A DNA stretch of 64,000 nt, taken from assembly GCA_003697105.1 (NCBI GenBank), contig RFFQ01000146.1, forward strand, positions 1-64,000. Direction: 5' to 3'. Origin of the DNA: Gemmatimonadota bacterium. GTDB lineage: Bacteria > 4572-55 > J002. Under the pieces are notes generated by a model. The model saw only the letters and a list, made by a program, of their open reading frames with translations. It had not been told where the DNA came from and did no database searches. Below, piece by piece: positions 34,785 to 58,327 of this stretch (the first letter of the stretch is position 1; each line of letters opens with the position of its first letter). The position numbers were made by a program, and so were the translations under genes.

Positions 34785-37700
34785 TTATTCACGTTTACGC
34801 AAATCGATAATCGGTTGGGCGTTTGCCGTTACTTGTAAGGTATCCATTTGTTTGTTGCAGAGGGTACCGGTGTCATCTTCTACGGTTAATGTAACGGTGT
34901 ACACCCCCGGTTTTTCATACTCATGGGTTACTTCCACGCCTTTGCCTGTATGGCCGTCCCCAAAATTCCAATAATAACTTAGATTGTCCCCATCAATATC
35001 GTAAGATTGGCTGCCATCAAAGGTCAGAGCACAGTTTGCGGTTTTCACACACGTGACCCGATCGTCACCGGCAATAGCAACCGGTGGGGTATTGGCTTTA
35101 ATCGTTTTTGTGACGATGGTGGTGTTACATGCGCCGGTGGTGTTATCCGTCACACGCAAGGTCACAGTATAATGCCCTGCTTTGGCGAAAGTATGGGTCG
35201 CGGTTTTGCCTGAAACTTCCGGCGATCCATCCCCAAAATCCCAAAAGTAGCCGGTGATTTGCCCGTCGGAATCGGTGGAGGCGGCGGCATTCACTTCAAA
35301 CGAGCTACCCGGACAGACGGAGGAAGGTGCGTCAATCTTCGCCAATGGCGGATTGTTGATGGAGACCTGCTTGACGTCTGTTGCCCGTCCAGAAGACAAG
35401 CCCGAATTATCGGTAACGGTCAAAATCACTTGATATACCCCCGGTTGCTTATAGGTATGCGTTGGTGCTACACCGGTTTGAGTCGGTGACCCGTCCCCAA
35501 AATTCCATTCGTATAAAATGATTGTCCCGTCGGGATCCACCGACTGGGAGCCGTCAAATTGCACCGTCAAATCGCAGAGGCCATCAATATCCGGACCCGC
35601 ATCCGCGACGGGTGGGGCATTGACTGTCACGGTGAGTTGATCGATTGCCATGCTGCAATCCAGACCGGAATTATCTTCAACGGAAAGTGTTACCGTGTAT
35701 CGCCCCGGTTCGCCATATTTATGGGTCGTACTTACCCCTTCGACCGGTTTGGAGCCATCCCCGAAATCCCAGCGGTACACCTTGATGTACCCGTCCCTAT
35801 CAAAAGATTGCCCGCCGTTGACCGCAATTTCCTGATTCGGATTGACCAATTTATCATCTCCGGCAACAGCAACGGGTAAATCATTGACCAGAACAGTCTT
35901 AGAGATGTTACTCTTCGAGCAGGGCAACCCTCGTCCATCATCCACGGTGACAATGACTTTATAACGTCCCGGGGATTGGTAAATATGGGTCGTGGATAAG
36001 CCGGTACCCGTGTTTCCGTCGCCAAAATCCCATGTAGCTGTTAGGGGATCACCATCTGCATCAGTGGAGGCGGTGGCATCAAAGGAAGTGATTGCACCCA
36101 CGCAAGTGTACTGCAACCGTTCGCCAATGTTCGGCGTGGGGGGTGCATTGATGGTTACTTGAGTTTTTGCAAAGGATTGGTTCATTTTTGTGTCGGAATT
36201 ATCGGTAACGATCAGCGTTACGTCATATGTGCCGGGTTGTTCATACAAATGGACGACTTTTGCACCTTTGCCGGTTTGCCCGTCGCCGAAATCCCACTGA
36301 TAATCCATGATCATGCCGTCAGGGTCACTGGACCCGGAGGCGTTCAATTCTACCCGCCCGCTACAGACTACCTGTGACGGGTTCACCTTAGCCACCGGTG
36401 GATAGTTGATTACCACGAGCATTGTATCCCGGTCAAACCCTTCCGGTAGCCCGCTATCATCTCGCACGGTTAAAATTGCCTGATATTGCCCGGATTCTGC
36501 ATACGGGTGGGTGACGATTTTCCCCGTTTCCACCGGTGAGCCATCCCCAAAATCCCACTCGTAACTCACGATGTTGCCATCTCGATCCGAGGAAGAGGAG
36601 CCATCAAACGTGATCTCTTGTCCGACGTGTCCGATTTGCATTCCTTCGGTCAGGGCTTCCGGGGGATAGTTGACGGTCACTGTGAGTTCGTCGGTGTCGT
36701 TACTGCACGGACCTAACGCCGTATTTTTTACGGAAAGTGTGACCTGATATTGCCCCGGTTTGCGATAGATGTGTGTTGCTGTCATGCCTTCCACCGGATC
36801 GGAAAGGTCGCCAAATGTCCATTTGTAGGTCAATGGGTATTGATTCGGGTCTTGAGACCGTTCACCGCTAAAATGAACTTCTTGTCCTACACTGACCAAG
36901 CGGTCTTCACCGGCATCGGCGGTGGGGGCGCTCTCTACGGTGATCGTTGCGGTATCGGTATCAATGGCGCAAGGTGTTTCGGAATTATCTTGAACCGTCA
37001 ACACCACGTGGTAAACGCCGGGCGCAGCATAGGTGTAGGTGGGTGAAAGTTCTTCCACGGGCGCTGTTCCATCGCCGAAATCCCAAATATAGTTGAAGAG
37101 TTCCCCGTCTGGGTCAAAAGAGCCGCTGGCATCAAAAAAGATAGATTGACCAAGGCAGACCGTTCGATCCGGACCGGCTTCTGCCACGGGGGAGGAATTG
37201 ATCCCGACGGTAATCTCCGCAAAATGGGTATTGCATTCGGACGGCGAATCATCCAACACCACCAGTTTGACCTTATAAACACCGGGTTGTTCATAGGTGT
37301 GTGTGGGTTGGGGTCCTTTACCGACGGCACCATCGCCAAAATACCAGAGATACTCCATGATGACTCCGTCTGGATCGATTGATTGGCGCCCGTCAAATCG
37401 AACGGTTTTCTCACAAGAGACGATATTTTCACCGGCGTTGGCTACCGGCGGTTCGTTGACAAACACGACCATGCCATCAGTATTGGTGTTACATTCGGTA
37501 TCGGAATTATCGGTAACAACTAGCCGTACATTATACGAGCCGGATTTTTCATAAGTATGTTCCACAATCGCACCTTCTGCCGAGTTTCCATCACCAAAAT
37601 ACCACATGTATTGGGTGATAGTGCCATCGCGGTCATAGGACTTCGTGCCGTCAAAGCGGATCGTTTCGCCGACGCAGGAATAACGGGATGTACCGGCTTC

Positions 37701-39311
37701 GGCGACAGGTGGCTCATTGATGATGATGGTCAAGGCGTCGGTGTCGGTATCATTTGCCGCACCGGAATTATCTTGCACGGAAACCGTCACGACATAGGAA
37801 CCGGGTTCGCGGTAGGTGTGTACCACGCGCGCACCTTGGAGCTGTGTTCCATCGCCCATATCCCAGAAGAAACTAAGCAGATTGCCGTCGGGGTCCTGGG
37901 AGCGGGAGGCATCCAGTACCACCGTATTGCAAAAGGGGAGCACATCCTCGCCGGGAACAAGCCCTTCATAAACTTGGCTACCATGAACTAACAACGTTTC
38001 ATCCGGCAACACCGACCCCGCTTTGAGAGTCAAATCTTCTCGTAAGATGAGCGCTTCCTCCAATGTGACATCCCGATCCAAAACCGTCTGTGCTGGGATA
38101 CGTTCTCCACCTCGCACCCGAATATCCTGTGGAATTTCGGTGCCCTTGGCGAGGGTTGTCCCTTTGGGTAAGACGGAACCCGCCCGAAGTTCCACATCAG
38201 ACTGCACCACATGGCTTTGGTCGAATAAAATATCTTCGTCCAGCTCAAATAATTCGGGAGAAAAGGTCTCGTCTTGTAGCGTGAGGGGCTTGCCAGAACG
38301 AGGCTGGACGGTGGAATACATGGGAAGGGGTTGGTAGTTCTGGTCGGTGACATAGATCACCACATCATTATTACGGAAGGTTCCTTTTTGAATTTCAAAC
38401 GTCCAGGGCGACTCGTAATCTTCTTCTAAAATATTATACGTGGTAGAAAACCACCGTTTGACATCATCTTGGGGGGGAATCGGCGGATGTTCATCATCCA
38501 CACCGAGATCATATTTGGTCACTGCCCAGACGTTATTTCCGGCGGTGTAGGCGGGTATTCCGGGTCGCGTTGGTGTGTTAAGATACATCACGCTATCATT
38601 ATCAAAGTCCCAAATATGGTGAATGAGGTAAGTGACATCTCGCATAACCATAAACGGGAATGTATGCAATACCACCCCTTTTTCATTGGGCATCCGGAAC
38701 GACCATTCATAGGCAAAGACTTGAATCTCGGTTGGGGTGGTTGGTCGATCGGGGAAAATGGAGCAATCTACGCGGTATAGATTCCCGTCATCGCCCTGAA
38801 TGCCTTCTACAATTAGTTTGAAGATAAAATCCCCGTCGGCATATTCCCCTTGCGCCGGATTCACGGTGGCAAGCACAATCCATTTTCCATCCGTTTCGAG
38901 CTGCTCGGCAAATGTTGTGTCCGCCAAAAGAGTCCCCGAGCGGTAATCTCCGGTAGGATTGACGCCGCGGGCATCAGCAACTGTATAGGCACCTTCTCCT
39001 CCGTAAAGCGAAAATCGTGTTTGGGTGTCCCACATCCCTTGTGGCTCATCAACTTGGCCGCCCGCTTCCGGATCATAAATACGGATATATAATGAATCCA
39101 CAATTTCTTCCGGAATAGCGAAAAAGACGGTCTGTGAAAAATCGTCATCACCCCAATCTGGGGCACTTTGATTACCAAACGTACACAAATAGGGAATATT
39201 TAAACTGGGATGGGGGACTTCATCCGCTTCTTGGTAGGATGGTGTTCCGATGATAAAAAGGATTCCCAAAAACAGGGTTACGAGGACGTTACGGAACATC
39301 GGTGTAAACAT
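34785..39311 (-). CDS. Secreted protein with about 12 tandem PKD domains
   Basis: Twelve W-x-[FM]-GD signatures (FFWDMGDGTQ ... YYWNFGDGHT); signal peptide at MFTPMFRNVLVTLFLGILF with GGAGGAAGG RBS; ORF track start 39380. Confidence 0.9.
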   Translation of the reverse strand: MFTPMFRNVLVTLFLGILFIIGTPSYQEADEVPHPSLNIPYLCTFGNQSAPDWGDDDFSQTVFFAIPEEIVDSLYIRIYDPEAGGQVDEPQGMWDTQTRFSLYGGEGAYTVADARGVNPTGDYRSGTLLADTTFAEQLETDGKWIVLATVNPAQGEYADGDFIFKLIVEGIQGDDGNLYRVDCSIFPDRPTTPTEIQVFAYEWSFRMPNEKGVVLHTFPFMVMRDVTYLIHHIWDFDNDSVMYLNTPTRPGIPAYTAGNNVWAVTKYDLGVDDEHPPIPPQDDVKRWFSTTYNILEEDYESPWTFEIQKGTFRNNDVVIYVTDQNYQPLPMYSTVQPRSGKPLTLQDETFSPELFELDEDILFDQSHVVQSDVELRAGSVLPKGTTLAKGTEIPQDIRVRGGERIPAQTVLDRDVTLEEALILREDLTLKAGSVLPDETLLVHGSQVYEGLVPGEDVLPFCNTVVLDASRSQDPDGNLLSFFWDMGDGTQLQGARVVHTYREPGSYVVTVSVQDNSGAANDTDTDALTIIINEPPVAEAGTSRYSCVGETIRFDGTKSYDRDGTITQYMWYFGDGNSAEGAIVEHTYEKSGSYNVRLVVTDNSDTECNTNTDGMVVFVNEPPVANAGENIVSCEKTVRFDGRQSIDPDGVIMEYLWYFGDGAVGKGPQPTHTYEQPGVYKVKLVVLDDSPSECNTHFAEITVGINSSPVAEAGPDRTVCLGQSIFFDASGSFDPDGELFNYIWDFGDGTAPVEELSPTYTYAAPGVYHVVLTVQDNSETPCAIDTDTATITVESAPTADAGEDRLVSVGQEVHFSGERSQDPNQYPLTYKWTFGDLSDPVEGMTATHIYRKPGQYQVTLSVKNTALGPCSNDTDELTVTVNYPPEALTEGMQIGHVGQEITFDGSSSSDRDGNIVSYEWDFGDGSPVETGKIVTHPYAESGQYQAILTVRDDSGLPEGFDRDTMLVVINYPPVAKVNPSQVVCSGRVELNASGSSDPDGMIMDYQWDFGDGQTGKGAKVVHLYEQPGTYDVTLIVTDNSDTKMNQSFAKTQVTINAPPTPNIGERLQYTCVGAITSFDATASTDADGDPLTATWDFGDGNTGTGLSTTHIYQSPGRYKVIVTVDDGRGLPCSKSNISKTVLVNDLPVAVAGDDKLVNPNQEIAVNGGQSFDRDGYIKVYRWDFGDGSKPVEGVSTTHKYGEPGRYTVTLSVEDNSGLDCSMAIDQLTVTVNAPPVADAGPDIDGLCDLTVQFDGSQSVDPDGTIILYEWNFGDGSPTQTGVAPTHTYKQPGVYQVILTVTDNSGLSSGRATDVKQVSINNPPLAKIDAPSSVCPGSSFEVNAAASTDSDGQITGYFWDFGDGSPEVSGKTATHTFAKAGHYTVTLRVTDNTTGACNTTIVTKTIKANTPPVAIAGDDRVTCVKTANCALTFDGSQSYDIDGDNLSYYWNFGDGHTGKGVEVTHEYEKPGVYTVTLTVEDDTGTLCNKQMDTLQVTANAQPIIDLRKRE

Positions 39312-39500: not shown

Positions 39501-42500
39501 GTGGATGGCATTGATACCTTATTTAGCTCTAGAAAAGCGAAACGTATGACCACCTATAACCCGTACCTTTCTGAGGCTGTTGACACGCCTTCTTTTTTTT
39601 ATGGGCGCTCGGAAACAATTCGTTTTATACTCAACCAACTGCAAGAACCTCAGGCTCACCCGATCATCTTGTTTGGACAGCGGAAAGCGGGTAAAACCGC
39701 CGTTTTTCGCCATCTACTGCACCTCAAACCGGAGGGGTTTGTGTGGGTCTATTTTGATTTGCAAGGGTATGTACATGCGCCGTTAGCGGAAACCCTGTTC
39801 CATTTGGCAGAAGCCATTGCGCACCAACTGGATATTGCCATTCCCACCAAAAAAACCTTTTTGAAAGATGACCATTTCTTTGAAACCAAATTTCTGAATC
39901 AAATTCGGAGTGCACTCAAAGACCGTCACCCGGATCAGCCTCCGGCAATGGTGTTGTTGCTGGATGAATTTCATCTACCGCGCGGAGCAGATGTTGCCCG
40001 CGACGACACTATTGTGACCTTTTTTCCCTTCCTCTACCAGTTATTACAAAAGGATGCACCGCTACGGCTGGTGCTCACTTTTGGACCGGAATTAGCCATT
40101 TCCTACCGGAACAATCCACAGGCATATCAATTATTGACCCAAATTTTATCATCTCCACTGCTCCACGAGGGCGTGTCACATCATGTTACCTCTCTTTCCG
40201 TTGAAGACGCCCTAAAACTGATCAAAGAACCGGTTGGAAATCAATTGGTGTACAACCCGGAAGCCCTAGACCGCATTTTGAGCCTTGCTAGTACGTGTCC
40301 CTTTTTGATCCGCCAACTCTGCGGTCTTATCTATGAGAAAAAACAACCGGCTGACTCCGAACCGGTGGCGATCTATTCCACAGATGTGGAAGCGGTGAAA
40401 ACCGAATTTATCCGCCGCTTGCACTCCCATTTTGATGCCCTCTGGGACGATCTGCCCCTCGTGCAAAAAGTGATTTTCTGGCTTATTGCCAAACACCGGG
40501 ATTCTCAGGGTGCCGTTCCCCGGCAGAAATTGGTTTCTCTATTGGAACGCCAGCATATCAAATTGCCCAAAGGTTTATTCCAAAACCACGAGTTAGTAGC
40601 AGAAGAGAACCATGTTGTCCGGTTTCGCATCGGCGGTTTTGGGGATTGGCTGGTGGATCAGGATGTCGAAAATGATTTGATGATCGATTTTGGGCATGCC
40701 GAGAACTCCAACAAAGATGGGAGTAGTGCCCATTTTGCCGGTGAATTTGAACGGGCGCTGGAGTATTACCGGGAGGCGGTGGCTATCAATCCTTACCACC
40801 TAGATGCCCAGCTTGGTATCGCCGAAGTCCTGAGCCAATTGGGACGCACCGAAGAAAGCATTGAGGAGTACGAAAAAGCGTACCAATTAGACCCGTTTTT
40901 TGTGGCAGATGATCTGGTCAATGCCCGCTTAAAGTATGCCGGAGAATTGGAACAAGCCGGCGATAAAAATGGCGCCATTCTGCAATACAGCCGTATCTTG
41001 GAAATCTCACCCAACCATATGCGAGCCCAAGAGCTGTGGGCGGAGTTGGTACTGGAAAAAGGACAAAACTTGTGTGAACAGGAAAATTGGGACGACGCGA
41101 TCTATTGGTACCAGCAACTCTTGAACGTGGCACCAGCCTTGACCGTGGCACGATGTGCCCTCGCCGAAGTATATCTGCGGAAGGGAGAGTACGAAGCGGC
41201 GGTGAATGAATATGAAAAAGCCCACAATATCGACCGCAGTGAATCTGTGGCACACGGTTTGGCAAAGGCACGCCTCAAATGGGGTGAAGAACTCAAAGAA
41301 GAGGGGATGACCCCAGAAGCAATTGCCAATTATAAGCGAGTTCTTCTCACCGAACCGGATGAGGAAACCCGGGAAACGACCATCGCCAATTTGGTTAAAT
41401 TGATGCTCCGCCGGGCGGATCAAAGTGCTCAAGCCGGTGACCTGTTAAAAGCTCGGGAGGAATATCGCCGCGTGATCGAGATGGACGGTAATTGCTTAGA
41501 AGCCATGATCAAAGAAGCCGGTGTTGTCTATGCCATGGGTGATTATGACGAAGCGATTCGCCTGTTTGAAGCCGCCTGTGAAATCAATGAGGACATCGCT
41601 AAACCCGCCATGATTGCCACTCAACTCAATTATGCCGATCGATTAGCCACAAATGGCGCTTGGGACACCGCCATGGAGGTGTGCGACACCGTTCTTGCGC
41701 TCGACCCGGAAAATGTGTTGGCACAGGATAAACGCCGGCAATTTGAAGACCGCCGGAATCAGACTCCACCGGTGGCAGATGCCGGCACCACTGGTGAACC
41801 GGTTTCGACCGCTGATCCAGACCCCGTTACCGCGGATTCCGAGCAGGATACTGTTGACCTCGACCGGGAATACCAGCAGGCGATGGCATATCTGGAAAAT
41901 AAACAGTGGGATGAGGCGTTGGAATCCCTCAATCATATTTTTGAACAGGACCCAGACTACCGGGATGCGGATCAAACCCCGATACCGGTCTGGATTAGCC
42001 GTGCCTTTTTGGCCCGTGTCGGGCTTGCCGAAGACCTCCTGCCCCAACGCATACAGCAGTTGGAAGCGGAACTTGCTGCCCTAAAAGACGCTCATGCGGT
42101 GGAATTAGAAACCTTGCGCACGGCGGAAACTGAGGCAAGTTGGCAGTTAGAGTCGCTGGAAACCGAACGAGACCAGTTGCAGATAGAACTGAAAACCGTC
42201 CAGCGCCAATTAGCGGATGCCGAGGCAAAAGTCAAACAGATGGAGGCAGAAAACCTGATCCGGAATGCAGAAGTGGCTGCCCATTCACAAGACCTTTCGG
42301 TACACGTCACATCTGCCGACCAAACTATCGATGAAATGAACGACTTGATCGCGCAACTGAATTTAGAAAAACAAGCCCTTAAACATGAAGTGGCGCAGTT
42401 GCGAGACCAATTACTGGAACAAGCCGATCTGTTTGACCACTCGGAGGATACTCCCCAAGAGACCCTCTTGGCAGAGACGGAACAACTCCAGCACGAAAAC

Positions 42501-45443
42501 GACCAACTCCGTAAAACGAACGAGATGCTTGCCGCCCAACTCCAACGCTTACAAGAGGAAATAGAAGCCTCCGCCCCACCGGCTGAAACCGGAGCACCTG
42601 CGGCGGATCGCATTGCGGAACTTGAAGCCCAGCTTGCCACGCTAAAAACAGAACGTAATGAGTTACAAACCGTACTGGATCAGGTACAGTCCGATGCGGC
42701 GGAGCTTAAACAGGAATTCACAAGCCTACGCGAACAGCACCAGCATGACGCCGAGACCGTTAAAGCGCTGGAACAAGCAAATCGACAACTCCAAGAAGAA
42801 ATCGTTGCCTTGGAACAGGATGCGATTGACCCGCAGGAATTGAAACAAGCGGAAGAAACCATTGCCCAATTGACCCGTGAACGAGATCAATTGCAACTGG
42901 ATTTGCAGGTCGCAAATGAAAAACTGAAAACCTTACAAAATTCGATCCAAAATACGCCGGATCGATCCGCTGAAATTAGGGCATTGGAAAACGAAATTGA
43001 CATCCTCACAGAACGTTTAGAACACGCCACCGGTAAGGAAAACAAGCTGATCCAGAAAAACGTCAAGATGATGGACATCAACACCCGGTTGCTCAAACAG
43101 ATTTCCGAATTGCAGACCGAAGTAGAGAATGCCCAATCCCGGCTAAATGAAACAACTCAGCGTTATGAAAAGACCGAAATTCCCGCCTACAGGCTCAAAC
43201 TTGAAAATCTGAAACGGGAGTTGGAACAGCAGACGGCGGATTATGACCAATTACACGCTGAAGTGGAGCATCTTCGGGCAGAAAATCAGCAATTACACGA
43301 TCAGATTGCGCAACTGGAAGACCGAACCTCTGAACTCGACCTCAACCTGAAAAGTTATGAAACAGACCAACTGCGACCGTTGGAACAGGAGGCGAATACA
43401 CTCCGCCAACAATTGCACGAACGGGATCAGCAGATAAATGAACTCCAGAAAACCATTACCCGCTTGGAAACTCAATTGGACAACTTGAAGGCGGATTTGG
43501 CAGAGCAACAACGTCGCTATGAGGAAGTTGAAATCCCAAAACGAGAAGATGCCATCCGGGCATTGGAAGCCCAACAGCAAGAACAGACGGCGGCTCAGAC
43601 TGCACTGGAGGAACAACTCCAACGCACACAAGCCGAGCTAGATGACGCACGCCAACAATGGCGAGATATTGAGCACGATTATAAAACACTTCAAACGACG
43701 AACCAAGACCTCCAGCACCGAGTTGAAGACCTGCAACACCAATTGGAGACCATTCAACACGAACGAGACCAACTCCAACAAGAAATCACCGGTTTGCAGC
43801 AGAAATTAGAAGCAGAACAATTCCGACATCAGGAAGAACGAAAGTCGTTAAAAAGCGAAATTGAAACGTTAGCCACGGAAGCCGAACAGTACGCCCTCCA
43901 GACGGATGAACTGCGACAATTGCTCACCCAGCAACAAGCCACCGCCGAGAAACTGCGGGCAGAATATGACCACTTAGAAGAGCAATACGAACAGGTGCGC
44001 CTGCCAGAGCTAAACGAAAAAATTCAGACATTGCAAGAGAACGTCACTCATCTGGAAGCGCGACAGGTAGAACTGGAAAATCTGCTGGATAAAGCCGAAC
44101 GCGATTTAGCCTACCGTCAGGAACGGCTGAACCAATTACAGCAACGATATGATACGGAAACGGCATCCTTGCGGCGACAAATTGAGAACCTCTCCCAAGC
44201 GCTCGAGGCAAAATCCGACAATGAACAAAATCTATTGGAAAACAACACGGCGCTGACGCGTGCCAATACGGATTTGTTGCGACAGTTGTCGCAGTTAAAA
44301 GATGAACTGAATGAGGCTCAAAGACAACAAGCCCAATTTGAACAGATCGAACGCCTCCAGTTACAAAATGAAATCGATAAACTCAAGCGAACCTTAGCCA
44401 CCGAGGAACACCAGCGAGAACACTTGGAAAGCGAACTGGAAACGGCGACGCAGGCGCTGGAAGATGCGCATCAACGGGCAATAACTCTACAACAGGATTA
44501 TGAAGAAAATGTGATTGCCCCCCTCCAACAAGAGGTGGATGACTTGCGCCGGACCGTGAATGAAGCTAAAACACATGAAGAGATTTTACAACGCCGGTTG
44601 CGTGAAATGGAGCAGGAAAATCATCAATTGGTACGTGATCTGGAAGCATTGCGCGAAGAATATCAAACCGAACGCTTGCCCCAATTAGAGCGACAACTCA
44701 AAGACCAACAGGAAGAAACGGCGGCTAAAGCCAACCGCATTCGTGAACTGGAGACCCAACTCCACATTAAGGACCAAGAGATGGCGGCGTTGCGGACAGA
44801 ACTTCAGCAGATGCAAACACACTATGAACAGGAACGCTTGGCTCCGTTAGAGCAGCGTCTGGCACAACTGGAAACGCAACTGTTTGAAGCCGAAGGTAAC
44901 CTCAGTGATGCCCGGGCACATGCCACCTCCCTGCAAGACCAAATTGATGATTTACAGCAACAGTTGGAAGAACAACAAATTCGGTATGAAGTTCAGCAGA
45001 TTAAGCCGCTGCAACACCAGATCGACCTTCTTCAACAAAAAGTAACCGCCGCGGAACGTACCGAAAATCAATTGAAGGCAAAAGCGGAAGATGCTGAATC
45101 CGCCCACCAGTATGCGTTGCAACAGATTGAAGTTTTGCAGGATGAAATCGATCTCCTGCGGGAAAAAGCCGATCACGTTCGCCAACAGTACGAACACGAG
45201 CGCATTCCCGCCTTGCAACGAAAGATCGAGCGCCTCACCCAATCCAACCATGAAAAAAGTGAAAATATTGAACGGCTGAACCGGCTTCTTGCCGAAAAAT
45301 TGGAAGAAGAAGAAGAATTGCTCCGCCACAATACGGAAATGAGTGATAGCAATACCCGTTTGTTAAAGAAAATCAATGAGTTGCAGCGAGAAATTGTCTC
45401 ATTACGCCAACCGTTACCCAACGCTGATACGGAAGAGTCATGA
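39501..45443 (+). CDS. Giant STAND-like AAA ATPase + TPR + coiled-coil repeat protein
   Basis: FYGRSE, ILFGQRKAGKTAVF (Walker A), VLLLDEFH (Walker B), TPR units from about aa 415, then more than 1,100 aa of coiled coil. Alternative start MTTYNPY at 39546. Confidence 0.88.
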   Translation: MDGIDTLFSSRKAKRMTTYNPYLSEAVDTPSFFYGRSETIRFILNQLQEPQAHPIILFGQRKAGKTAVFRHLLHLKPEGFVWVYFDLQGYVHAPLAETLFHLAEAIAHQLDIAIPTKKTFLKDDHFFETKFLNQIRSALKDRHPDQPPAMVLLLDEFHLPRGADVARDDTIVTFFPFLYQLLQKDAPLRLVLTFGPELAISYRNNPQAYQLLTQILSSPLLHEGVSHHVTSLSVEDALKLIKEPVGNQLVYNPEALDRILSLASTCPFLIRQLCGLIYEKKQPADSEPVAIYSTDVEAVKTEFIRRLHSHFDALWDDLPLVQKVIFWLIAKHRDSQGAVPRQKLVSLLERQHIKLPKGLFQNHELVAEENHVVRFRIGGFGDWLVDQDVENDLMIDFGHAENSNKDGSSAHFAGEFERALEYYREAVAINPYHLDAQLGIAEVLSQLGRTEESIEEYEKAYQLDPFFVADDLVNARLKYAGELEQAGDKNGAILQYSRILEISPNHMRAQELWAELVLEKGQNLCEQENWDDAIYWYQQLLNVAPALTVARCALAEVYLRKGEYEAAVNEYEKAHNIDRSESVAHGLAKARLKWGEELKEEGMTPEAIANYKRVLLTEPDEETRETTIANLVKLMLRRADQSAQAGDLLKAREEYRRVIEMDGNCLEAMIKEAGVVYAMGDYDEAIRLFEAACEINEDIAKPAMIATQLNYADRLATNGAWDTAMEVCDTVLALDPENVLAQDKRRQFEDRRNQTPPVADAGTTGEPVSTADPDPVTADSEQDTVDLDREYQQAMAYLENKQWDEALESLNHIFEQDPDYRDADQTPIPVWISRAFLARVGLAEDLLPQRIQQLEAELAALKDAHAVELETLRTAETEASWQLESLETERDQLQIELKTVQRQLADAEAKVKQMEAENLIRNAEVAAHSQDLSVHVTSADQTIDEMNDLIAQLNLEKQALKHEVAQLRDQLLEQADLFDHSEDTPQETLLAETEQLQHENDQLRKTNEMLAAQLQRLQEEIEASAPPAETGAPAADRIAELEAQLATLKTERNELQTVLDQVQSDAAELKQEFTSLREQHQHDAETVKALEQANRQLQEEIVALEQDAIDPQELKQAEETIAQLTRERDQLQLDLQVANEKLKTLQNSIQNTPDRSAEIRALENEIDILTERLEHATGKENKLIQKNVKMMDINTRLLKQISELQTEVENAQSRLNETTQRYEKTEIPAYRLKLENLKRELEQQTADYDQLHAEVEHLRAENQQLHDQIAQLEDRTSELDLNLKSYETDQLRPLEQEANTLRQQLHERDQQINELQKTITRLETQLDNLKADLAEQQRRYEEVEIPKREDAIRALEAQQQEQTAAQTALEEQLQRTQAELDDARQQWRDIEHDYKTLQTTNQDLQHRVEDLQHQLETIQHERDQLQQEITGLQQKLEAEQFRHQEERKSLKSEIETLATEAEQYALQTDELRQLLTQQQATAEKLRAEYDHLEEQYEQVRLPELNEKIQTLQENVTHLEARQVELENLLDKAERDLAYRQERLNQLQQRYDTETASLRRQIENLSQALEAKSDNEQNLLENNTALTRANTDLLRQLSQLKDELNEAQRQQAQFEQIERLQLQNEIDKLKRTLATEEHQREHLESELETATQALEDAHQRAITLQQDYEENVIAPLQQEVDDLRRTVNEAKTHEEILQRRLREMEQENHQLVRDLEALREEYQTERLPQLERQLKDQQEETAAKANRIRELETQLHIKDQEMAALRTELQQMQTHYEQERLAPLEQRLAQLETQLFEAEGNLSDARAHATSLQDQIDDLQQQLEEQQIRYEVQQIKPLQHQIDLLQQKVTAAERTENQLKAKAEDAESAHQYALQQIEVLQDEIDLLREKADHVRQQYEHERIPALQRKIERLTQSNHEKSENIERLNRLLAEKLEEEEELLRHNTEMSDSNTRLLKKINELQREIVSLRQPLPNADTEES
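43164..45209 (+). repeat. Tandem 54-residue (162 bp) coiled-coil protein repeat
   Basis: Anchor Y-E-x3-[IL]-[PAR]-x-L... recurs 13 times (two degenerate); counted intervals 64,54,54,48,54,54,63,54,54,54,54,68 aa, summing to the 675 aa measured from DNA coordinates. Confidence 0.85.
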
Positions 45444-48400
45444 TGGACAAAAACCGGTACGAACAGGAGATTGAGGATTTACGGCGCGAGATTGATAGCC
45501 TAAATCGTGTTTTGCGGGAAAAATCCGCCTACGAAGACCGTCTGCAAACCAAAAATAAACGGTTGATGGAACGCAACAACCAACTGTTTAAGCAGGTTGC
45601 CGAATTGCAAGGAGACGTCGCCCGTCTGCACCAGCAGGTGTTCGCGCTCAATAAATCACCGGAAAGCTACCAAACGGCGGTCTTGCAGGCTGAATTAGAC
45701 CAGTTGCAATCGGTGGTGAACGAGTTGCAATCTCGTGAAACATCGCTCCTCGCCGAGAATCAGCGCTTAAAAACGGATTTGAATCATTGGCGATCTGCCA
45801 CGGCGCAGGATTCGCATGAGACGGTGCGTAAAACGGCTGAAATAGAGCAACTCAAACGGGCACGGCAAGAGGCCGAAGAACGCCTTTCCCGCAAAACCGC
45901 CGAATTTCTGGAACTGAGCGAACGCATTGGAGAACTGGATCGCATCTACGAAAAAACCATTGCGGAAGTCAAACGGTTACGCGAACAATTGACCGCGACG
46001 AAAGCGGAAAATCAGGACAAAACAGCCCGGCTGGCAAAGCTCCATGCTGAACAAGAAGACTTACAAGCACAATTGGTATCCCAGCAGTCCCGTGCGGCGG
46101 AGATGCAGGCGCAGTTGGCAGAGACTCGCTCTAAATTGAATCTGGCAGAGAAAAATATCCAACAGTTGACCGAAACTCTGCAAAAATATGAGCATCACCA
46201 AATACCGGTATTGCGCTCCCAACTGGATGATCTGAACCGCCAAATATCTGAAAAAGATAAAGAAATAAATATCTTACGCAAAAAAAATGAAGCCTTGGGG
46301 TCGGCAACCTCCGGTGCGGAGGCCTCCGCGGATGATGATGACACACGCCACCGGGAACTTCAACAGGAGGTGGAGCGTCTCAACAACGTGATCTCCCAAA
46401 AAGAGCGGGAACTGGAAATTTTAGCGCAGGATAAGCAAAAACTGGTCGATCAACAACTTCATTTTCAGCAAAGTTTGCAAGCGGAACTTGCCGCGAAAAT
46501 TGAACTGGAATTTCAACAGCGTGAACTCAACACCAAACTGGCCGCCGCCCAGCAAGAAATCGAGACGTTAAGAGCAGAACTTGCCGCTCGACCCGAACTG
46601 GCTACTGGCACGGATGGGCTTGAAACCGACCTCCAAAACTTGCAGGCACTGCTGGAGGAGCGGGATGCGACCATCGCCTCATTGAATGCCCAACTTTCTG
46701 AGATGGCAGACCCACTCGTCGCGGCTAAAGCTGAAAGTTTGCAACAGGAGTTGGATACCGCCCGGCGAAAAATTTCCGATTTGCGCACGGAAAATTCGTC
46801 TTTACAGCAGCAGTTGAACGACTTGAAAACCGCATTGGAGCATCGTCACTCCATCGAAGCAGAGATTACCAGTCTATCTGCCACCATTGACCGGCTTAAC
46901 CAATCGTTGGAAGCATCTGCGGCGGAAAAAGCCGATTTGAAGCGTGCCTATGATTCTCTGCGGCACGAGTGGGCAACACTTTACGAGCGTTTAAACCAAC
47001 CCGAACCTGTGTCTTCCAAAAAGAAATATCCGGCGTTTTGGTTGTGGTCGGTCTTCTTTTTACTTCTGGCGGTGCTGTTGCTCTTTTTACCGGAAACCCT
47101 TGACCAAACCAAATCGGTGTTTCCCCTCTCCAACCCACCGGTTATAACCCGTTTGGGTGCTCCTGACTCGATGACCTCCAATGTCACCCCGGCACCTCCG
47201 GTTCCGAGTGCAGATTCAACAACGGTAATCGCGGAAATGCCGCCGGAAAGCTCATCTCCGGCAGCTATAACCCCCGGCATCACTCCGGCTTCTGATTCAA
47301 CAACGGTAATCGCGGAAATGCCGCCGGAAAGCTCATCTCCGGCAGCTATAACCCCGCCTGCATCCGCACCGGAATCTGGAACGGTGGGTGCTGAACCGGC
47401 GCCGGAAACCGCTCCCCGCATGACGGTAGAACCCGAAACGACACCGGTTGCCGGCACGCCCGCTTCCGCATCATCCCCGACGTTTACCTTACCGGCTACC
47501 GTTGATTTGAGTGTGGATGTCAGTGGTGGAGAAGCTCCCTTAAAAACCACGTTCCACGCCCCGTTGCCAGAACCCACACCGGATAATCTCAACTTTTTGT
47601 GGGATTTTGGGGATGGGGTAACCAGCCGTCAGGCATCCCCCACCCATACCTATGTCCAGCCGGGTATTTACACCACCCGTCTGAACTTGCAATACGGTCA
47701 GGATTCCAAAACGGTTGGACAAGTCACGATTCAAGTGGATGCCCCCCCGCCCCCGCCAATTGCAGAAGCCTCGCTCGGCGAAGGGGATGCTAACCAAGGA
47801 AAACTCAAAACTGCTCCGCTGGCAACCCCAACCCCTAAACCCCGGTTGCAAGTCTCTACTACCGAAGGACGCGCCCCATTGGAAGTCCGTTTTTCATTAA
47901 GCGGGCTTGAAGGGATGCCGCATCTCTCCTATTTGTGGGATTTTGGGGATGGCAGTACCAGCAGTACCCAAGCGAATCCAACCCATATCTACCAAATGGC
48001 AGGAAATTATCGGGCTGTGGGTGTTGTCAAGCAGGGGAATCAAATTGTGGCGGAAGTCTCGCAGACGATTCGCGTGGTGCCGGATCAGCGCAATGTACGG
48101 ATTCAACAGTTGCATGCCATAGAAGAGATGGTTTTGATTCCGGCTGGAAATTTCCACATGGGTGATTTTCGAGGTGAACCGGATGCACAACCGCAAATTA
48201 TTGTCTTCTTAGATACCTATTATATTGATAAATACGAAGTTACCAATGCCCAATATGCGGAGTTTCTGAATCGTATCAATTATACACCAACAGATGATAA
48301 ATTCATTGAAATTTCGCACCCGGATTGTAAAATTTACTACGACTCGGATCAGGGATTTAAAGTTGAACCGGGTTATGAGTATTATCCCGTGGTTTGTGTC

Positions 48401-48841
48401 AGTTGGTACGGGGCAGATGCGTATGCCAAGGCACTGAATAAGCGATTACCCACCGAAGCGGAGTGGGAAAAAGCGGCACGGGGCGAACAAGATGTGCGCA
48501 GTTACCCTTGGGGAAATCAGTGGATCCCCAATATTGCCAACACCCGGGAACTCTCTTTGGGCAGTGGACCAACCAAAGTGGGGCGATTTCCTGCCGGTGA
48601 AAGCCCTTACGGGGTGGTTGATCTCATCGGGAATGTCTCTGAATGGTGTGCCGATTGGTATCAAGAAGATTTTTATCAGCGGCATTCTGGTAAGAATCCG
48701 GCGGGTCCCGTTTCGGGTACGATGCGCGTTTATCGCGGCGGGTCTTACAGCGATCTGGGTGCGCATGCCCGCGTGTTTGATCGCGCCGCGGCAAGCCCAG
48801 ATGCCAAGCATCCAACCCGAGGGTTTCGCTGTGCCCGGTAG
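45440..48841 (+). CDS. Coiled-coil + transmembrane + Pro/Ser/Thr linker + 2 PKD + FGE/SUMF1-fold protein
   Basis: N-terminal coiled coil, TM FWLWSVFFLLLAVLLLFLP, two WDFGDG PKD domains, then MVLIPAGNFHMGD...RLPTEAEWEKAARG...GNVSEWCADWY...YRGGSY...RGFRCA. Confidence 0.9.
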   Translation: MMDKNRYEQEIEDLRREIDSLNRVLREKSAYEDRLQTKNKRLMERNNQLFKQVAELQGDVARLHQQVFALNKSPESYQTAVLQAELDQLQSVVNELQSRETSLLAENQRLKTDLNHWRSATAQDSHETVRKTAEIEQLKRARQEAEERLSRKTAEFLELSERIGELDRIYEKTIAEVKRLREQLTATKAENQDKTARLAKLHAEQEDLQAQLVSQQSRAAEMQAQLAETRSKLNLAEKNIQQLTETLQKYEHHQIPVLRSQLDDLNRQISEKDKEINILRKKNEALGSATSGAEASADDDDTRHRELQQEVERLNNVISQKERELEILAQDKQKLVDQQLHFQQSLQAELAAKIELEFQQRELNTKLAAAQQEIETLRAELAARPELATGTDGLETDLQNLQALLEERDATIASLNAQLSEMADPLVAAKAESLQQELDTARRKISDLRTENSSLQQQLNDLKTALEHRHSIEAEITSLSATIDRLNQSLEASAAEKADLKRAYDSLRHEWATLYERLNQPEPVSSKKKYPAFWLWSVFFLLLAVLLLFLPETLDQTKSVFPLSNPPVITRLGAPDSMTSNVTPAPPVPSADSTTVIAEMPPESSSPAAITPGITPASDSTTVIAEMPPESSSPAAITPPASAPESGTVGAEPAPETAPRMTVEPETTPVAGTPASASSPTFTLPATVDLSVDVSGGEAPLKTTFHAPLPEPTPDNLNFLWDFGDGVTSRQASPTHTYVQPGIYTTRLNLQYGQDSKTVGQVTIQVDAPPPPPIAEASLGEGDANQGKLKTAPLATPTPKPRLQVSTTEGRAPLEVRFSLSGLEGMPHLSYLWDFGDGSTSSTQANPTHIYQMAGNYRAVGVVKQGNQIVAEVSQTIRVVPDQRNVRIQQLHAIEEMVLIPAGNFHMGDFRGEPDAQPQIIVFLDTYYIDKYEVTNAQYAEFLNRINYTPTDDKFIEISHPDCKIYYDSDQGFKVEPGYEYYPVVCVSWYGADAYAKALNKRLPTEAEWEKAARGEQDVRSYPWGNQWIPNIANTRELSLGSGPTKVGRFPAGESPYGVVDLIGNVSEWCADWYQEDFYQRHSGKNPAGPVSGTMRVYRGGSYSDLGAHARVFDRAAASPDAKHPTRGFRCAR
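47213..47355 (+). repeat. Two exact 62-bp copies, 81-bp period, in the extracytoplasmic linker
   Basis: gattcaacaacggtaatcgcggaaatgccgccggaaagctcatctccggcagctataacccc at 47213-47274 and 47294-47355. Confidence 0.95.
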
Positions 48842-48930: not shown

Positions 48931-51006
48931 ATGACGGCAGTAACCACACCTAAATATACGGATTTGCACGATCCGAGTCTCTATTTCAATCGCGAACTCA
49001 GTTGGATTCAGTTTAACGAGCGCGTACTCCGGGAAGCTCTAGACCCCGATAATTGGCCCCTATTGGAGCGACTCAAATTTCTCTCCATTTTTAGCACCAA
49101 TTTGGATGAATTTTTTATGATTCGGGTTGCCGGTCTTAAACAGCAGATCGGTGCGGAGATTCACAAAAAATCTCCGGATGGCCTCACGCCAGAAGAGCAA
49201 CTCAAATTAATTTCAGAGCAAGTTCACCGGCAAGTTGACGCCCAGATAACGTGCTTCATGGAGGATATCTTGCCCAAACTGGAAACTGCCGGTATTTATT
49301 TTCATCACTACCGTGACTTAAATCCGGCGCATCGGAAATTCTTAGATAAACTCTTTAAAAAAGATATTTTTCCGGTATTGACTCCGTTGGGCTTTGACCC
49401 CGGACGACCGTTTCCCCATTTGCTGAATATCAGTATTTACATTGCTTTTTTTGTTAGAGATGCGAATCAGCACGAGGAAGAACCCAAATTTGCCATTGTA
49501 CAAATGCCCTCTACATTGCCTCGCTTAATTCCCCTCCCGTACAAGCGAGGCACACATTTTGCCCTGTTGGAAGATGTTATCAGTGCAAATGCGCATCGCC
49601 TTTTTTTGGGATATGATGTCCTCGAATGCTATCCTTTTCAGGTCACCCGAGATGCGGACTTGGAAATTGCCGAAGATGAAGCGGATGACCTGCTGGAAAC
49701 GGTAGAACGCGAGGTCAATAAGCGGCGGTGGGGTAAAGCTGTTCGTCTGGCGATTGATCACTGTATGCCGGATAAGATTCGGGGTATCCTCGCGGACTCC
49801 CTCAATTTGCACCCGCAGGATGTGTACGAAGTGAAGGGTCCCTTGAATCTCTCTGATTTTATGCAACTGTATAAACTGGATCGACCGGATTTGAAAGATA
49901 AGCCGTTCACGCCCCGTTCCGTCCCCGATGTGCAAGGTTATAATACCATTTTTGATGCGATTCAGGAGAAAGATATTCTCCTTCACCACCCGTATGAATC
50001 TTTTAATAGTGTCATTGATTTTGTGCGAACCGCCGCAGAAGACCCCAACGTACTTGCCATTAAAATGACGCTTTACCGCACGGGAGTGGACTCGCCGATT
50101 CTGCGGGCACTCTCTACCGCCGTGGAAAATGGAAAACAAGTAGCGGTTCTGGTGGAGTTGAAAGCGCGGTTTGATGAAGAAAATAACATCGTTTGGGCAC
50201 GGTTACTGGCAAAATCCGGGGTTCATGTGGTGTATGGCTTGTTAGGCTTAAAGACCCACTGTAAAGTTGCTTTAGTTGTCCGGCGTGAGGGTAATCTCAT
50301 CCGGCGGTATGTTCACTTGGCTACCGGCAATTACAATCCCACAACGGCTAAAATCTACACCGACTTGGGCTTGATGACGTGTCACCCAGATTTTGGCGAA
50401 GATGTATCCCACCTGTTTAATTATCTGACGGGTTATTCTCGCCGCCAAAAATGGCGAAAATTACTGGTTTCACCCCTCAATTTACGGCAAGAATTGATTC
50501 GCTTGGTGCGGGATGAGATCATTATCCATGAAAAAAGCGGCAACGGCTGGATTATCCTCAAAATGAATTCCTTGCTCGATGCCGAAATGATCCGCTATTT
50601 GTACCAAGCGTCACAAGCCGGTGTCCGGGTTGATCTGCTGATCCGGGGGATTTGCTCGTTGCGTCCCGGCGTGCCGGGGATTAGCGATAACATTCGGGTC
50701 AAGAGTATTGTGGGGCGGTTTTTGGAACACAGCCGGATTTTTTACTTTCGGAATGGTGGTGATGAACGTGTCTATTTAGGCAGTGCGGATTGGATGCCCC
50801 GCAACCTCGACCGGCGCGTAGAAACCGTTTTCCCTGTGGAAGACCCGCGCTTGAAGCGTCGCATCACGGATGAGATTTTGATAACCACCTTGAAAGACAA
50901 TGTGAAATCATACGAACTAAAAAGTGATGGTACGTATGAAAAGATTCCGCACTCCCCTGAAAATGCAGTGAATTGCCAAGAAATATTTCTCAATGAATAC
51001 GACTAA
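48931..51006 (+). CDS. ppk1: Polyphosphate kinase
   Basis: YFNRELSWIQFNERVLREA...FSTNLDEFFMIRVAGL...HHPYESFNSVIDFV...GLKTHCK...HLATGNYN. Confidence 0.97.
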   Translation: MTAVTTPKYTDLHDPSLYFNRELSWIQFNERVLREALDPDNWPLLERLKFLSIFSTNLDEFFMIRVAGLKQQIGAEIHKKSPDGLTPEEQLKLISEQVHRQVDAQITCFMEDILPKLETAGIYFHHYRDLNPAHRKFLDKLFKKDIFPVLTPLGFDPGRPFPHLLNISIYIAFFVRDANQHEEEPKFAIVQMPSTLPRLIPLPYKRGTHFALLEDVISANAHRLFLGYDVLECYPFQVTRDADLEIAEDEADDLLETVEREVNKRRWGKAVRLAIDHCMPDKIRGILADSLNLHPQDVYEVKGPLNLSDFMQLYKLDRPDLKDKPFTPRSVPDVQGYNTIFDAIQEKDILLHHPYESFNSVIDFVRTAAEDPNVLAIKMTLYRTGVDSPILRALSTAVENGKQVAVLVELKARFDEENNIVWARLLAKSGVHVVYGLLGLKTHCKVALVVRREGNLIRRYVHLATGNYNPTTAKIYTDLGLMTCHPDFGEDVSHLFNYLTGYSRRQKWRKLLVSPLNLRQELIRLVRDEIIIHEKSGNGWIILKMNSLLDAEMIRYLYQASQAGVRVDLLIRGICSLRPGVPGISDNIRVKSIVGRFLEHSRIFYFRNGGDERVYLGSADWMPRNLDRRVETVFPVEDPRLKRRITDEILITTLKDNVKSYELKSDGTYEKIPHSPENAVNCQEIFLNEYD

Positions 51007-52951
51007 AACGATTCTTCTAATTGATGATGACCCCCATATTCGTCACCTGATTGGGTTGTTTTTACGGCGGACGGATTACCACCTGATTAGTGCCGGTGAT
51101 GGGGAATCCGGTTTACGCTTGATCCGAGAAAAAAAACCGGCGGCGATTCTGCTAGACCGGATGTTACCGGGACTCTCCGGTGACGAGGTTCTGCGCCGGT
51201 TGCGGCATGACCCAGCCTACCGGGAAGTCGCCCAGACACCGGTGATTGTGCTAACCGCACTTTCCGGGCGGGAAGTTCGTCAAAAAACACTCGAATTAGG
51301 CGCCAACGCTTATCTCACCAAGCCCGTCACCTTTGATATGTTGACCAACCAATTGGAAAGTGTCCTTTACCACTATTCTCTAGCTCTTCCAGCGGAGCCG
51401 TCCCTTACCAGTGATATTTACGAATTGTTGGTGGAAAATATCCATGATCTGGTTTTTGTTCTCTCGGCTTCGGGACAGGTGATGTATATCAATCCCCGCG
51501 TGCAGGATATGCTCGGCTACCCCCAAACGGAGATGTCCCAACGGTATTTCTCTGATTTTGTTTATCCCGATGATGTGGCCGTGGTTCAAGGCGTACTTAG
51601 CCACATTGTGGAAACCGGCGAACTGCATCAATTGGAAATCCGAATGCTCCACAAGGATAACAGCTTGCGGTATATGGAATTGACCGGAAAGCGGGTTGCT
51701 CGGAAAGATCAATACTTGATCATGGGTTCGGCGCGGGATGTGACGGTTGAGAATGACCTGCGGCAATCCGTGCGGCATTATGCCGAAAATTTGCAAGAGA
51801 TGGTCGAACGCCGGACGTACGAATTAGAGTTGGCAAAAAGTGAGATTACCTATCTGTTTCAGACCATCTCTCAGGTAATTGCACAATCGTCGATTGCGCG
51901 TAAAATCGAGGTGATTTGTGAGGCACTCGTCCGGGATCGATTTTACCAACAAGTGGTGATTGAAATTTACAACACCGATAATGTGCTTACGCACCGCACA
52001 GAACGGGGTCACATTGATGCGAATATCAGCCCGCAGCGCTATCGCTACCCGTTTTACCGGCAGGATGAAACTGTTTTGGGGTATCTGGAGGTGTACAACC
52101 CGCTGATTGAACTCTCGGACGAAGTGCAACGCATGATCAATTTATTTGTCAATGTCATTGCTCTTTCCATTGAGCGAGCCGAATTAGAGAGCGAAAATGA
52201 GGCAATCCATAAAGAATTGGTGGTGAAGAAGCTGGAGGCGGATGAACTGAGTATCCTCAAGTCGGAATTTATGAATAATGTCGGGCATGAATTTCGAACC
52301 CCGCTGGCAATTATTATCGGCTATCTGGATGTATTAACTCGGGGTATTGGGGGCAAGTTAAACGCGCGACAAGCCCAAATGGTGCAAGTCATGCGGGAAA
52401 ATGCGGATAAACTCCATCGATTAATTCAAGATATTCTGGATTTTTCACAGATTCAACTGAATGGGTTATCGGTTGCTTACGAACCCTGTGCCGTTCCCCA
52501 ACTGATCCTTTCTGCCACCGCCCGGGTGACCAATATGGCTAAGCAAAAAAATATTGCGCTCACCTATGTGTATCCGCATGATTTACCGGAAATTTTGCTT
52601 GACCCAAGCAAAACGGCACGTATTCTCCATGTGTTATTGGATAATGCCGTGAAATTTACGGACCCCGGTGGGACGGTGACGCTGGAAGCTGTGCATAACC
52701 AACATGAGATTCGGTTTCGGGTCAAAGATAGCGGTCATGGCATTGCCGAAGCAGACCGGGAGAAGATTTTTGAACCGTTCCGCCAAGGGGATGGCTCAAC
52801 GATTCGGGAACATGGCGGCACCGGGTTAGGGTTGAGTTTTGCCAAACATCTAACCGAATTATTGGAGGGGGAATTATCTTTCACCAGTGTGGTGGGGCAG
52901 GGTACAACGTTTGAAGTGGCGTTTCCCTTACGCTATGCGGAATGTTCGTAG
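50993..52951 (+). CDS. Receiver-PAS-GAF-like hybrid histidine kinase
   Basis: Receiver ILLDRMLPGLSGDE; PAS region; H-box NNVGHEFRTPLAIIIGYL; GTGLGLSFAK. Confidence 0.93.
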   Translation: MNTTKTILLIDDDPHIRHLIGLFLRRTDYHLISAGDGESGLRLIREKKPAAILLDRMLPGLSGDEVLRRLRHDPAYREVAQTPVIVLTALSGREVRQKTLELGANAYLTKPVTFDMLTNQLESVLYHYSLALPAEPSLTSDIYELLVENIHDLVFVLSASGQVMYINPRVQDMLGYPQTEMSQRYFSDFVYPDDVAVVQGVLSHIVETGELHQLEIRMLHKDNSLRYMELTGKRVARKDQYLIMGSARDVTVENDLRQSVRHYAENLQEMVERRTYELELAKSEITYLFQTISQVIAQSSIARKIEVICEALVRDRFYQQVVIEIYNTDNVLTHRTERGHIDANISPQRYRYPFYRQDETVLGYLEVYNPLIELSDEVQRMINLFVNVIALSIERAELESENEAIHKELVVKKLEADELSILKSEFMNNVGHEFRTPLAIIIGYLDVLTRGIGGKLNARQAQMVQVMRENADKLHRLIQDILDFSQIQLNGLSVAYEPCAVPQLILSATARVTNMAKQKNIALTYVYPHDLPEILLDPSKTARILHVLLDNAVKFTDPGGTVTLEAVHNQHEIRFRVKDSGHGIAEADREKIFEPFRQGDGSTIREHGGTGLGLSFAKHLTELLEGELSFTSVVGQGTTFEVAFPLRYAECS

Positions 52952-56587: not shown

Positions 56588-56749
56588 TGAAAAATGCTCC
56601 TTATTTGAGAGATACATATTTGGGAGATATACATTAAGGGAATTGAAATGTAGCCGGAAATTGGGGAAAACGGGGTGGGGTTTCCTTTACGTTTGTTGGA
56701 AATTAAAGCTCTACGGATGTTTGGTCAATATTTTTGTCTCATTCCAGGG

Positions 56750-56785: not shown

Positions 56786-58216
56786 ATGCTCCGATTGAAA
56801 GAGGATACCGCCGTAAAATCACCAGAGTTTTCGCCCTTATTGGATCATCGTGCGTTGCTGGTCTATTTGGGGTTGGGTGCCATGATTTTGGCATTACTCT
56901 TCATGCTGTTGACCAACCTTTTGGTGCGCGAGCTCGACACCGAAAACCGCAAAATCTCAGAAGCCTTAACGCGCTTTTTGCTCCATTTGCCAACGACACT
57001 CGATGAAAATACCACGCGTCTTGTCAGCCAGATCGTCATGGACGATATTGTGAAACATCTGACGTTCCCCTATATTCTGACCGATGCCGAAGGCAATCCC
57101 CAAATTTGGGTGCGCTTGACTCCCCAACAGACGGTTGAAGTATGGGTGCGTGTCAGGCAAAAAGAGGCGTTTCAGGAATTAGAAGGGTATGCTGCCCTCA
57201 CGGATTCCATCTTTTGGGTGCGAAATAATGCGGTTATTTTAGACCACACGGAGGAGATTCAGCACGAATTGGAACGGGCGATTCGGAAGATGGATAGCCA
57301 TTATCCGCCTTTACCCATCTATCTCAATTTTGAGTTAGAGGATATTCAGTTTCGCCAACGGAAAACGGAAGATGAAATTTTACTAGGGTATTTGCATTAT
57401 GGGGAAACCCCCGTTATGCAAAAGCTCCGCTGGATGCCTATTGTTCAAACCCTTATTTTTCTGCTGTTTATGTTGTCTGGCTTGATTGGCTACCGTATGC
57501 TAAAGGCATCGGAGCAACGCTCTATTTGGGCAGGTATGGCAAAAGAGACGGCTCACCAGTTGGGTACACCGATCACCAGCTTGATGGGTTGGTTGGAACT
57601 ACTCACCGACCCTGATTTTGTCGATACGCCCGAATTAAACCGGCAGATGATCGTCGAATCCATGCGGAAAGATATTGAACGCCTCGATAAAGTGGCTTCC
57701 CGGTTTGGTAAAATTGGTTCTATGCCGGATTTAGCCCCGTTAGACCTCAATGAGGTGGTGCAGGGTATTGTCGATTACTACCGCCAACGGTTGCCACAAG
57801 TGGGGCGTAAATGTGTCATCCGGGTGCAAACTCAGCCGGTGCCGGTGGTTTACGCCAATCGGGAATTATTGGAATGGGTCATCGAAAATTTAATTAAAAA
57901 TGCCCTCGATGCGCTCGAAAAAGGGAATAGTTTTATCGACGTACAAACCCGTCTGGATGCCGCACATGGGATGGTAGAAATTATCGTAGGGGATAATGGC
58001 AAAGGTATCCCATTGAACCTTCAGTCATCTATTTTTTTGCCGGGGTTTACTACCAAAAAGCGGGGTTGGGGGTTGGGGTTAACCCTCGCCCGCCGGATTA
58101 TGGAAGATTACCACCGCGGCAAAATCCGCTTAATTCGCAGTTCACCGGGGGAAGGAAGTTGGTTTAGTGTGATGTTACCCGTGGCTCGTGTAAATGATTC
58201 GCATCTAACGAATTAG
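56786..58216 (+). CDS. Membrane sensor histidine kinase
   Basis: Two TM segments; H-box AKETAHQLGTPITSLMGWLELL; GDNGKGIP; GWGLGLTLARRIMEDY. Confidence 0.92.
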   Translation: MLRLKEDTAVKSPEFSPLLDHRALLVYLGLGAMILALLFMLLTNLLVRELDTENRKISEALTRFLLHLPTTLDENTTRLVSQIVMDDIVKHLTFPYILTDAEGNPQIWVRLTPQQTVEVWVRVRQKEAFQELEGYAALTDSIFWVRNNAVILDHTEEIQHELERAIRKMDSHYPPLPIYLNFELEDIQFRQRKTEDEILLGYLHYGETPVMQKLRWMPIVQTLIFLLFMLSGLIGYRMLKASEQRSIWAGMAKETAHQLGTPITSLMGWLELLTDPDFVDTPELNRQMIVESMRKDIERLDKVASRFGKIGSMPDLAPLDLNEVVQGIVDYYRQRLPQVGRKCVIRVQTQPVPVVYANRELLEWVIENLIKNALDALEKGNSFIDVQTRLDAAHGMVEIIVGDNGKGIPLNLQSSIFLPGFTTKKRGWGLGLTLARRIMEDYHRGKIRLIRSSPGEGSWFSVMLPVARVNDSHLTN

Positions 58217-58327
58217 ATTAGAATTCCAATTAAAAATAGCTTGACTTTTGTCATCAGGTGTGATACCGTTGAAGATGATTTGAACCGATTTACCTGATTT
58301 TCAAGGCGTTTAAGGAGCCTTTGGTTT

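Follow-up and report, generated by a model that had tools for sequence, protein, structure and literature searches.

Are STAND-type NTPases confined to detecting invaders inside cells, or can they also sense ligands outside the cell or organise its envelope? This question is raised by two overlapping genes, A and B, in a window of 64,000 nucleotides (the whole stretch of DNA analysed here), which is contig C22 (1–64000) of a 4.18 Mb draft genome that is 97% complete. Gene A (39501–45443, + strand) encodes 1980 residues as called from a GTG start, and gene B (45440–48841, + strand) encodes 1133 residues; both are intact and co-oriented, and they overlap by ATGA. Because relatives of A begin a few residues upstream of an NPY motif, ATG 39546 is probably a likelier start for A than GTG 39501. 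Open reading frames, Pfam matches, and transmembrane (TM) prediction bear out the architecture given in the initial annotation, namely an AAA/STAND-like N-terminus, TPRs, and coiled coil in A, and coiled coil, a single TM helix, a Pro/Ser/Thr linker, two PKD domains, and an FGE/SUMF1-fold domain in B. No NCBIfam model scored over its cut-off for either protein.

A carries a STAND-type NTPase followed by TPRs

The N-terminal part of A (39546–40700, +) has the features of a STAND-type P-loop NTPase domain with a winged-helix-like end, including an NPY...YGR motif, a Walker A sequence (GQRKAGKT, 39675–39698, +), and a Walker B sequence (LLLDE, 39954–39968, +), and is followed by a TPR array (40713–41966, +; residues ~405 to 822; TPR_2, 1.7e-29 in Pfam). 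With the full protein as query, the Pfam matches of residues 33–200 to AAA_22 and ATPase_2 were sub-threshold. When the NTPase domain alone was used, AAA_16 scored 44 bits against a cut-off of 32.6, although no nSTAND model matched A's own sequence. Relatives aligned with A matched nSTAND2 (6.6e-38), nSTAND1, AAA_35, and ATPase_2, and in an alignment of seven family members the GK of Walker A and the DE of Walker B were invariant, with an N–P near the start. Retention of the Walker motifs in relatives had been set in advance as a test of the locus, and their conservation supports the STAND-like assignment of the A NTPase. A profile of the NTPase family of A matched PDB entry 2fna at 4e-14, and 2fna and 2qen are the nearest solved structures. 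These COG1672-like, MNS-clade ATPases (ATPase_2) share with A the P-loop core, the DE of Walker B, and the helical and winged-helix-like end, but they are ATPase-only proteins of ~350 residues, whereas A adds TPRs and a rod. Judged by sequence relationship, A is a STAND/MNS-type NTPase that owes the nSTAND label to its relatives rather than to its own score. Upstream of the NPY/ATPase region of A, we found no Pfam domain and no N-terminal effector or EAD. Structure prediction without an alignment gave a mean pLDDT of 47 for the ATPase of A and of 31 for the ectodomain of B.

B is predicted to hold an FGE-fold domain outside the membrane

No TM helix was predicted in A and one was predicted in B. 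In B, a KKK sequence precedes the helix (47018–47092, +, for both; TM residues ~531–551), which is followed by a linker rich in Pro, Ser, Thr, and Ala (47108–47506, +), two Pfam PKD domains (47507–48073, +), and an FGE/SUMF1 (C-type-lectin-like) domain (48122–48838, +) that matches the Pfam FGE-sulfatase model at residues 895–1133 (6e-56). Because KKK precedes the sole TM helix, the positive-inside rule places the N-terminus and rod of B in the cytoplasm and the linker, PKD domains, and FGE domain outside. This predicted topology agrees with the proposal of a cytoplasmic NTPase and coiled coil joined through the TM helix of B to extracytoplasmic PKD and FGE domains. The giant part of the A/B pair is thus predicted to be cytoplasmic and not envelope-spanning: of the 'envelope-spanning giant' system first proposed, the TM link between inside and outside stands, but both long rods are placed inside the cell.

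The FGE domain of B belongs to the same fold family as the formylglycine-generating enzyme (SUMF1/FGE) and keeps most of its motifs (RLPTEAEWE, GNVxEW, RGGS, and GFR), but it lacks both catalytic, copper-binding cysteines of that enzyme (GGSYSDLGAHAR versus GGSFLCHESYCNR). In an alignment with the solved FGE enzymes 6s07 and 6muj, B has RGGSYSDLGAHAR at the corresponding site. The missing Cys pair after GGS rules out B as a true FGE enzyme and suggests that its FGE domain probably serves as a binding fold; four further alignable FGE-fold domains of the source genome likewise lack the pair. B also resembles the GldK/PorK ring lipoprotein of the T9SS in having an extracytoplasmic FGE-fold domain, but it is TM-anchored and carries a rod and PKD domains, and its score of 90.7 bits falls short of the NCBIfam equivalog cut-off of 350.

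The rods of A and B share private motifs

The coiled-coil rod of A spans ~1,120 residues (42033–45395, +) with a net charge of −109, and that of B spans ~520 residues (45440–46999, +) from a start that overlaps the stop of A; Cys is absent from both. At 0.1485 nm per residue, these rods would be roughly 166 nm (A) and 77 nm (B) long. Hydrophobic periodicity in the heptad range rose to as much as 8.5 SD above shuffles, in many but not all 70-residue windows. Matches to SMC/Rad50, JetC, LmuB, and DruC reflect coiled-coil similarity, and we rejected these identities. For SMC/Rad50, no heads flanking the coiled coil were found, and the matches were far below cut-off and confined to the coiled coil.

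Two motifs recur in the rod of A. The motif YE(x4)[IL]xP occurs nine times (residues 1222, 1286, 1340, 1496, 1667, 1721, 1775, 1829, and 1897; +), compared to 0.08 copies expected from shuffles, and three successive spacings of this Pro-containing repeat are exactly 54 residues. The NL motif (N-T-x-LLK[KQ]I-x-ELQ) occurs three times (42978–43154, 44166–44342, and a C-terminal copy at 45252–45425, all +). Homologues of both are present in the rod of B, with the NL motif at residues 14–66 (45479–45637, +) and the YE..IP motif at residues 241–282 (46160–46285, +). DNA-level repeats were discarded as the source of the rods, as TRF gave just one short 21-base array.

To avoid circularity, we built motif models from the copies in A only, leaving B out, and searched 1402 targets that included 500 heptad-preserving shuffles of the rod of B. 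With the YE model, B scored 30.3 bits (E 2e-8) and the best unrelated target 8.4 bits; with the NL model, B scored 33.8 bits (E 2e-9) and the best unrelated target 6.6 bits. Neither model found C67, a paralogue of A in the same genome. A repeat profile built from the copies of both A and B matched, among 385 genomes, the source genome only, at 1e-5. Because the A-only models find B far above background and the 384 other genomes searched lack the repeats, the two rods most likely share descent. Together with the ATGA overlap, these private motifs support the link between A and B that the initial annotation had drawn. The rod of A ends with one NL copy and the rod of B begins with one, and the two rods might pair in register or end to end.

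Related ATPases are joined to FGE domains and ectodomains elsewhere

We found no orthologue of the A/B pair among the genomes searched; the pair is absent in G001, the sole other genome of the class compared, and a search of contigs with short peptide patterns from A returned a chance TPR match only. The ATPase–TPR–FGE combination does occur in one chain in another phylum: P0001 of genome G237 (932 residues) joins an ATPase of A's type, TPRs, and an FGE domain, and aligns with A over 648 residues (E 2e-38). In a lineage alignment, the FGE domain of B was not sister to that of P0001, so ATPase–TPR and FGE modules were joined more than once, and this repeated association supports a functional link rather than orthology of the A/B pair. 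In a plasmid search with P0001, the best matches listed covered the FGE part only, in cyanobacteria. A G100 locus (L053) with ATPase-like as well as FGE matches consists of separate reading frames and was set aside.

The paralogue C67 has the order ATPase–TPR–coiled coil–acidic tail, with neither an adjoining FGE partner nor the shared rod motifs. In the phylum of G046, some ATPases of the A family carry a TM helix and extracytoplasmic PEGA domains (L135 and L136), which suggests that a cytoplasmic STAND protein can be wired to an ectodomain, and ATPases of this family there adjoin a second ATPase bearing a Ser/Thr kinase, CHAT, or TIR domain. Tandem STAND-ATPase pairs (L110, L132, L135, L136, and L137) belong to A's ATPase family and have a sensor wired to the ATPase, in some cases via a TM helix, but A has no adjacent second ATPase and its ectodomain sits on the separate protein B.

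The neighbourhood holds signalling genes and a divergent PKD gene

Gene C (34785–39311, − strand) encodes a secreted protein with 12 PKD_4 domains (Pfam) and likely starts at ATG 39311, which has AGGAGG upstream and begins a signal peptide. With the starts of A and C corrected, the gap between them is about 190–235 bp, in keeping with the ~190 bp first reported for this 12xPKD gene. Beyond its divergent position and PKD repeats of a generic kind, we found nothing that links C to the A/B pair, and we treat it as a neighbour whose proposed role as a third member of the assembly is unsupported.

A defence island is not supported either: the neighbours of A/B are ppk, histidine kinases, a cyclase, an aminoacyl-tRNA synthetase, and a subtilase. 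No defence gene adjoins the pair; PADLOC gave generic homologies only over ten neighbours and generic coiled-coil similarity only for A and B themselves. DGR diversification is likewise unsupported, as no RVT_1 (reverse transcriptase) match in the source genome was over cut-off. Starting 90 bases downstream of B, a polyphosphate kinase gene overlaps a gene for a receiver–PAS–histidine kinase protein (48931–52951, +). Further along are a subtilase with CarboxypepD_reg, InhA-like MAM, and C-terminal FlgD-Ig-like domains, the last possibly a secretion signal domain (53834–56617, −), and a histidine kinase followed by a receiver–GAF–class III nucleotide cyclase, likely a cyclic-nucleotide signalling module (56786–60115, +).

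A/B is probably a split, membrane-anchored variant of a predicted sensor architecture

The closest described kind to A/B is the STAND NTPase-FGS (FGE/CLec) architecture, predicted to act as a counter-invader sensor in conflict systems (PMC8195603) and also described in DGR-diversified form (PMC10907252); as of the latter work, CLec/FGE domains with bacterial STAND proteins had not yet been characterised experimentally. Both A/B and this class couple a STAND NTPase of MNS/nSTAND type to an FGE-fold domain at the C-terminus, which is the proposed sensor; A/B does so through overlapping genes with shared rods, and the G237 protein in one chain with helical repeats between NTPase and FGE. A/B differs in its two genes, an FGE domain held outside via a TM helix, two giant coiled coils, and a PKD stalk. 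Because an effector or EAD at the N-terminus, a DGR (frequent in that class, not universal), and defence neighbours are all missing, we do not file A/B as a member but regard it as a split, membrane-anchored variant: relative to the known class the chain is split, the FGE domain has moved outside, and matched giant rods have been inserted. Assignment to a described family is thus possible at the level of architecture only, for a class whose function is predicted rather than demonstrated. We found no description in the literature of a split, rod-linked, membrane-anchored STAND NTPase–FGE form, so the earlier label 'undescribed' holds for this form but not for the principle.

A sensor or scaffold reading and its rivals

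We favour, at a probability of about 0.5, the reading that A and B are the two subunits of a single transmembrane sensor or scaffold of STAND type. With the two PKD domains and the flexible Pro/Ser/Thr linker keeping it clear of the membrane, the outer FGE (C-type-lectin-like) domain of B would bind some ligand or a component of the envelope. The single TM helix would connect this domain to the cytoplasmic rod of B, which would co-assemble with A's far longer rod through the shared repeats. Binding or clustering outside could then be relayed along the rods to the TPRs and NTPase of A, which would cycle between closed and open or oligomeric states, as STAND NTPases do, and A might recruit downstream partners via its TPRs or coiled coil. 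Hetero-coiled-coil assembly, ligand sensing, NTP-driven switching, and the identity of the output are all inferred. Found in nature as two subunits, an outer receptor and an inner switch joined by rods with common repeats, such a system would offer a concrete, testable model for STAND NTPase coupling across a membrane. We advance more tentatively, as a possibility somewhat below even odds, that A/B is the founding case of a transmembrane STAND apparatus not described before, with a lectin-fold receptor and NTPase on separate proteins and co-evolved giant rods.

Several observations count against a two-subunit sensor or scaffold. C67, the closest paralogue, lacks an FGE partner and the shared rod motifs, which is mildly unfavourable; the non-sister FGE domains of B and P0001 imply that the association arose separately; no effector is recognisable; and rods of ~166 and 77 nm are long for relaying a signal and in keeping with a structural role. 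The last point leads to a rather doubtful but substantial rival in which A/B is mainly a cytoskeletal or envelope-tethering scaffold, its rods being filaments or tethers under the membrane that the PKD and FGE domains of B would anchor to an outer structure, with the NTPase controlling assembly rather than sensing. The Pro-containing repeat common to both very long rods, with its 54-residue spacing three times running, fits this rival, as does the structural use of FGE-fold domains elsewhere, such as GldK/PorK. The relatives of A's ATPase, however, bear GAF, PEGA, TIR, CHAT, and kinase domains, not cytoskeletal ones.

Those same TIR, CHAT, and Ser/Thr-kinase ATPases, a kinase–nSTAND2 pair on contig C40 of the source genome, and the predicted counter-invader role of STAND NTPase-FGS proteins would suit an anti-phage or kin-recognition conflict system, in which an extracellular FGE/CLec receptor triggers STAND-driven death or dormancy through effectors encoded elsewhere. 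We consider this improbable: A has no N-terminal effector or EAD, the PADLOC and reverse transcriptase searches gave neither defence genes nor a DGR, and the FGE domain of B faces outward, whereas characterised phage-sensing STANDs act inside. Far less credible still is that A and B are unrelated neighbours whose motifs came to be alike by convergence or through a recent swap of rod segments. The biased composition of coiled coils and the lack of a partner for C67 would fit this, but B-left-out models of two different motifs strongly beat both background and heptad-preserving shuffles, the stop of A overlaps the start of B, and ATPase, TPRs, and FGE are fused in G237.

Other STAND ATPase and FGE-fold proteins

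Adjacent STAND ATPase pairs recur at L011, L105, L109, L110, L132, L133, L134, L135, L136, and L137, one member having TM–PEGA, GAF, TPR, or HEAT-like input and the other a Ser/Thr kinase, CHAT, or TIR domain, which suggests a widespread signalling module in which two ATPases act as sensor and effector. A stand-alone A paralogue of the source genome (L010:8490–12932) has ATPase, TPRs, coiled coil, acidic repeats, and a helical C-terminal end. In G001, a protein with a C-terminal FGE domain (L025:7462–9762) has an apparent P-loop N-terminus (GDSDMGKSS, VVFLDGLDED), judged by eye and with no Pfam NTPase match. The source genome itself uses the FGE fold in mixed settings, among them a single protein with a response regulator receiver, Ser/Thr kinase, and FGE domain (L024:6627–8756), a TM–PEGA–FGE protein (L030), and, at a contig end, an acidic repeats–TM–Pro-rich linker–TPR–FGE protein that has a B-like layout without rod or PKD domains (L023:6075–8366).
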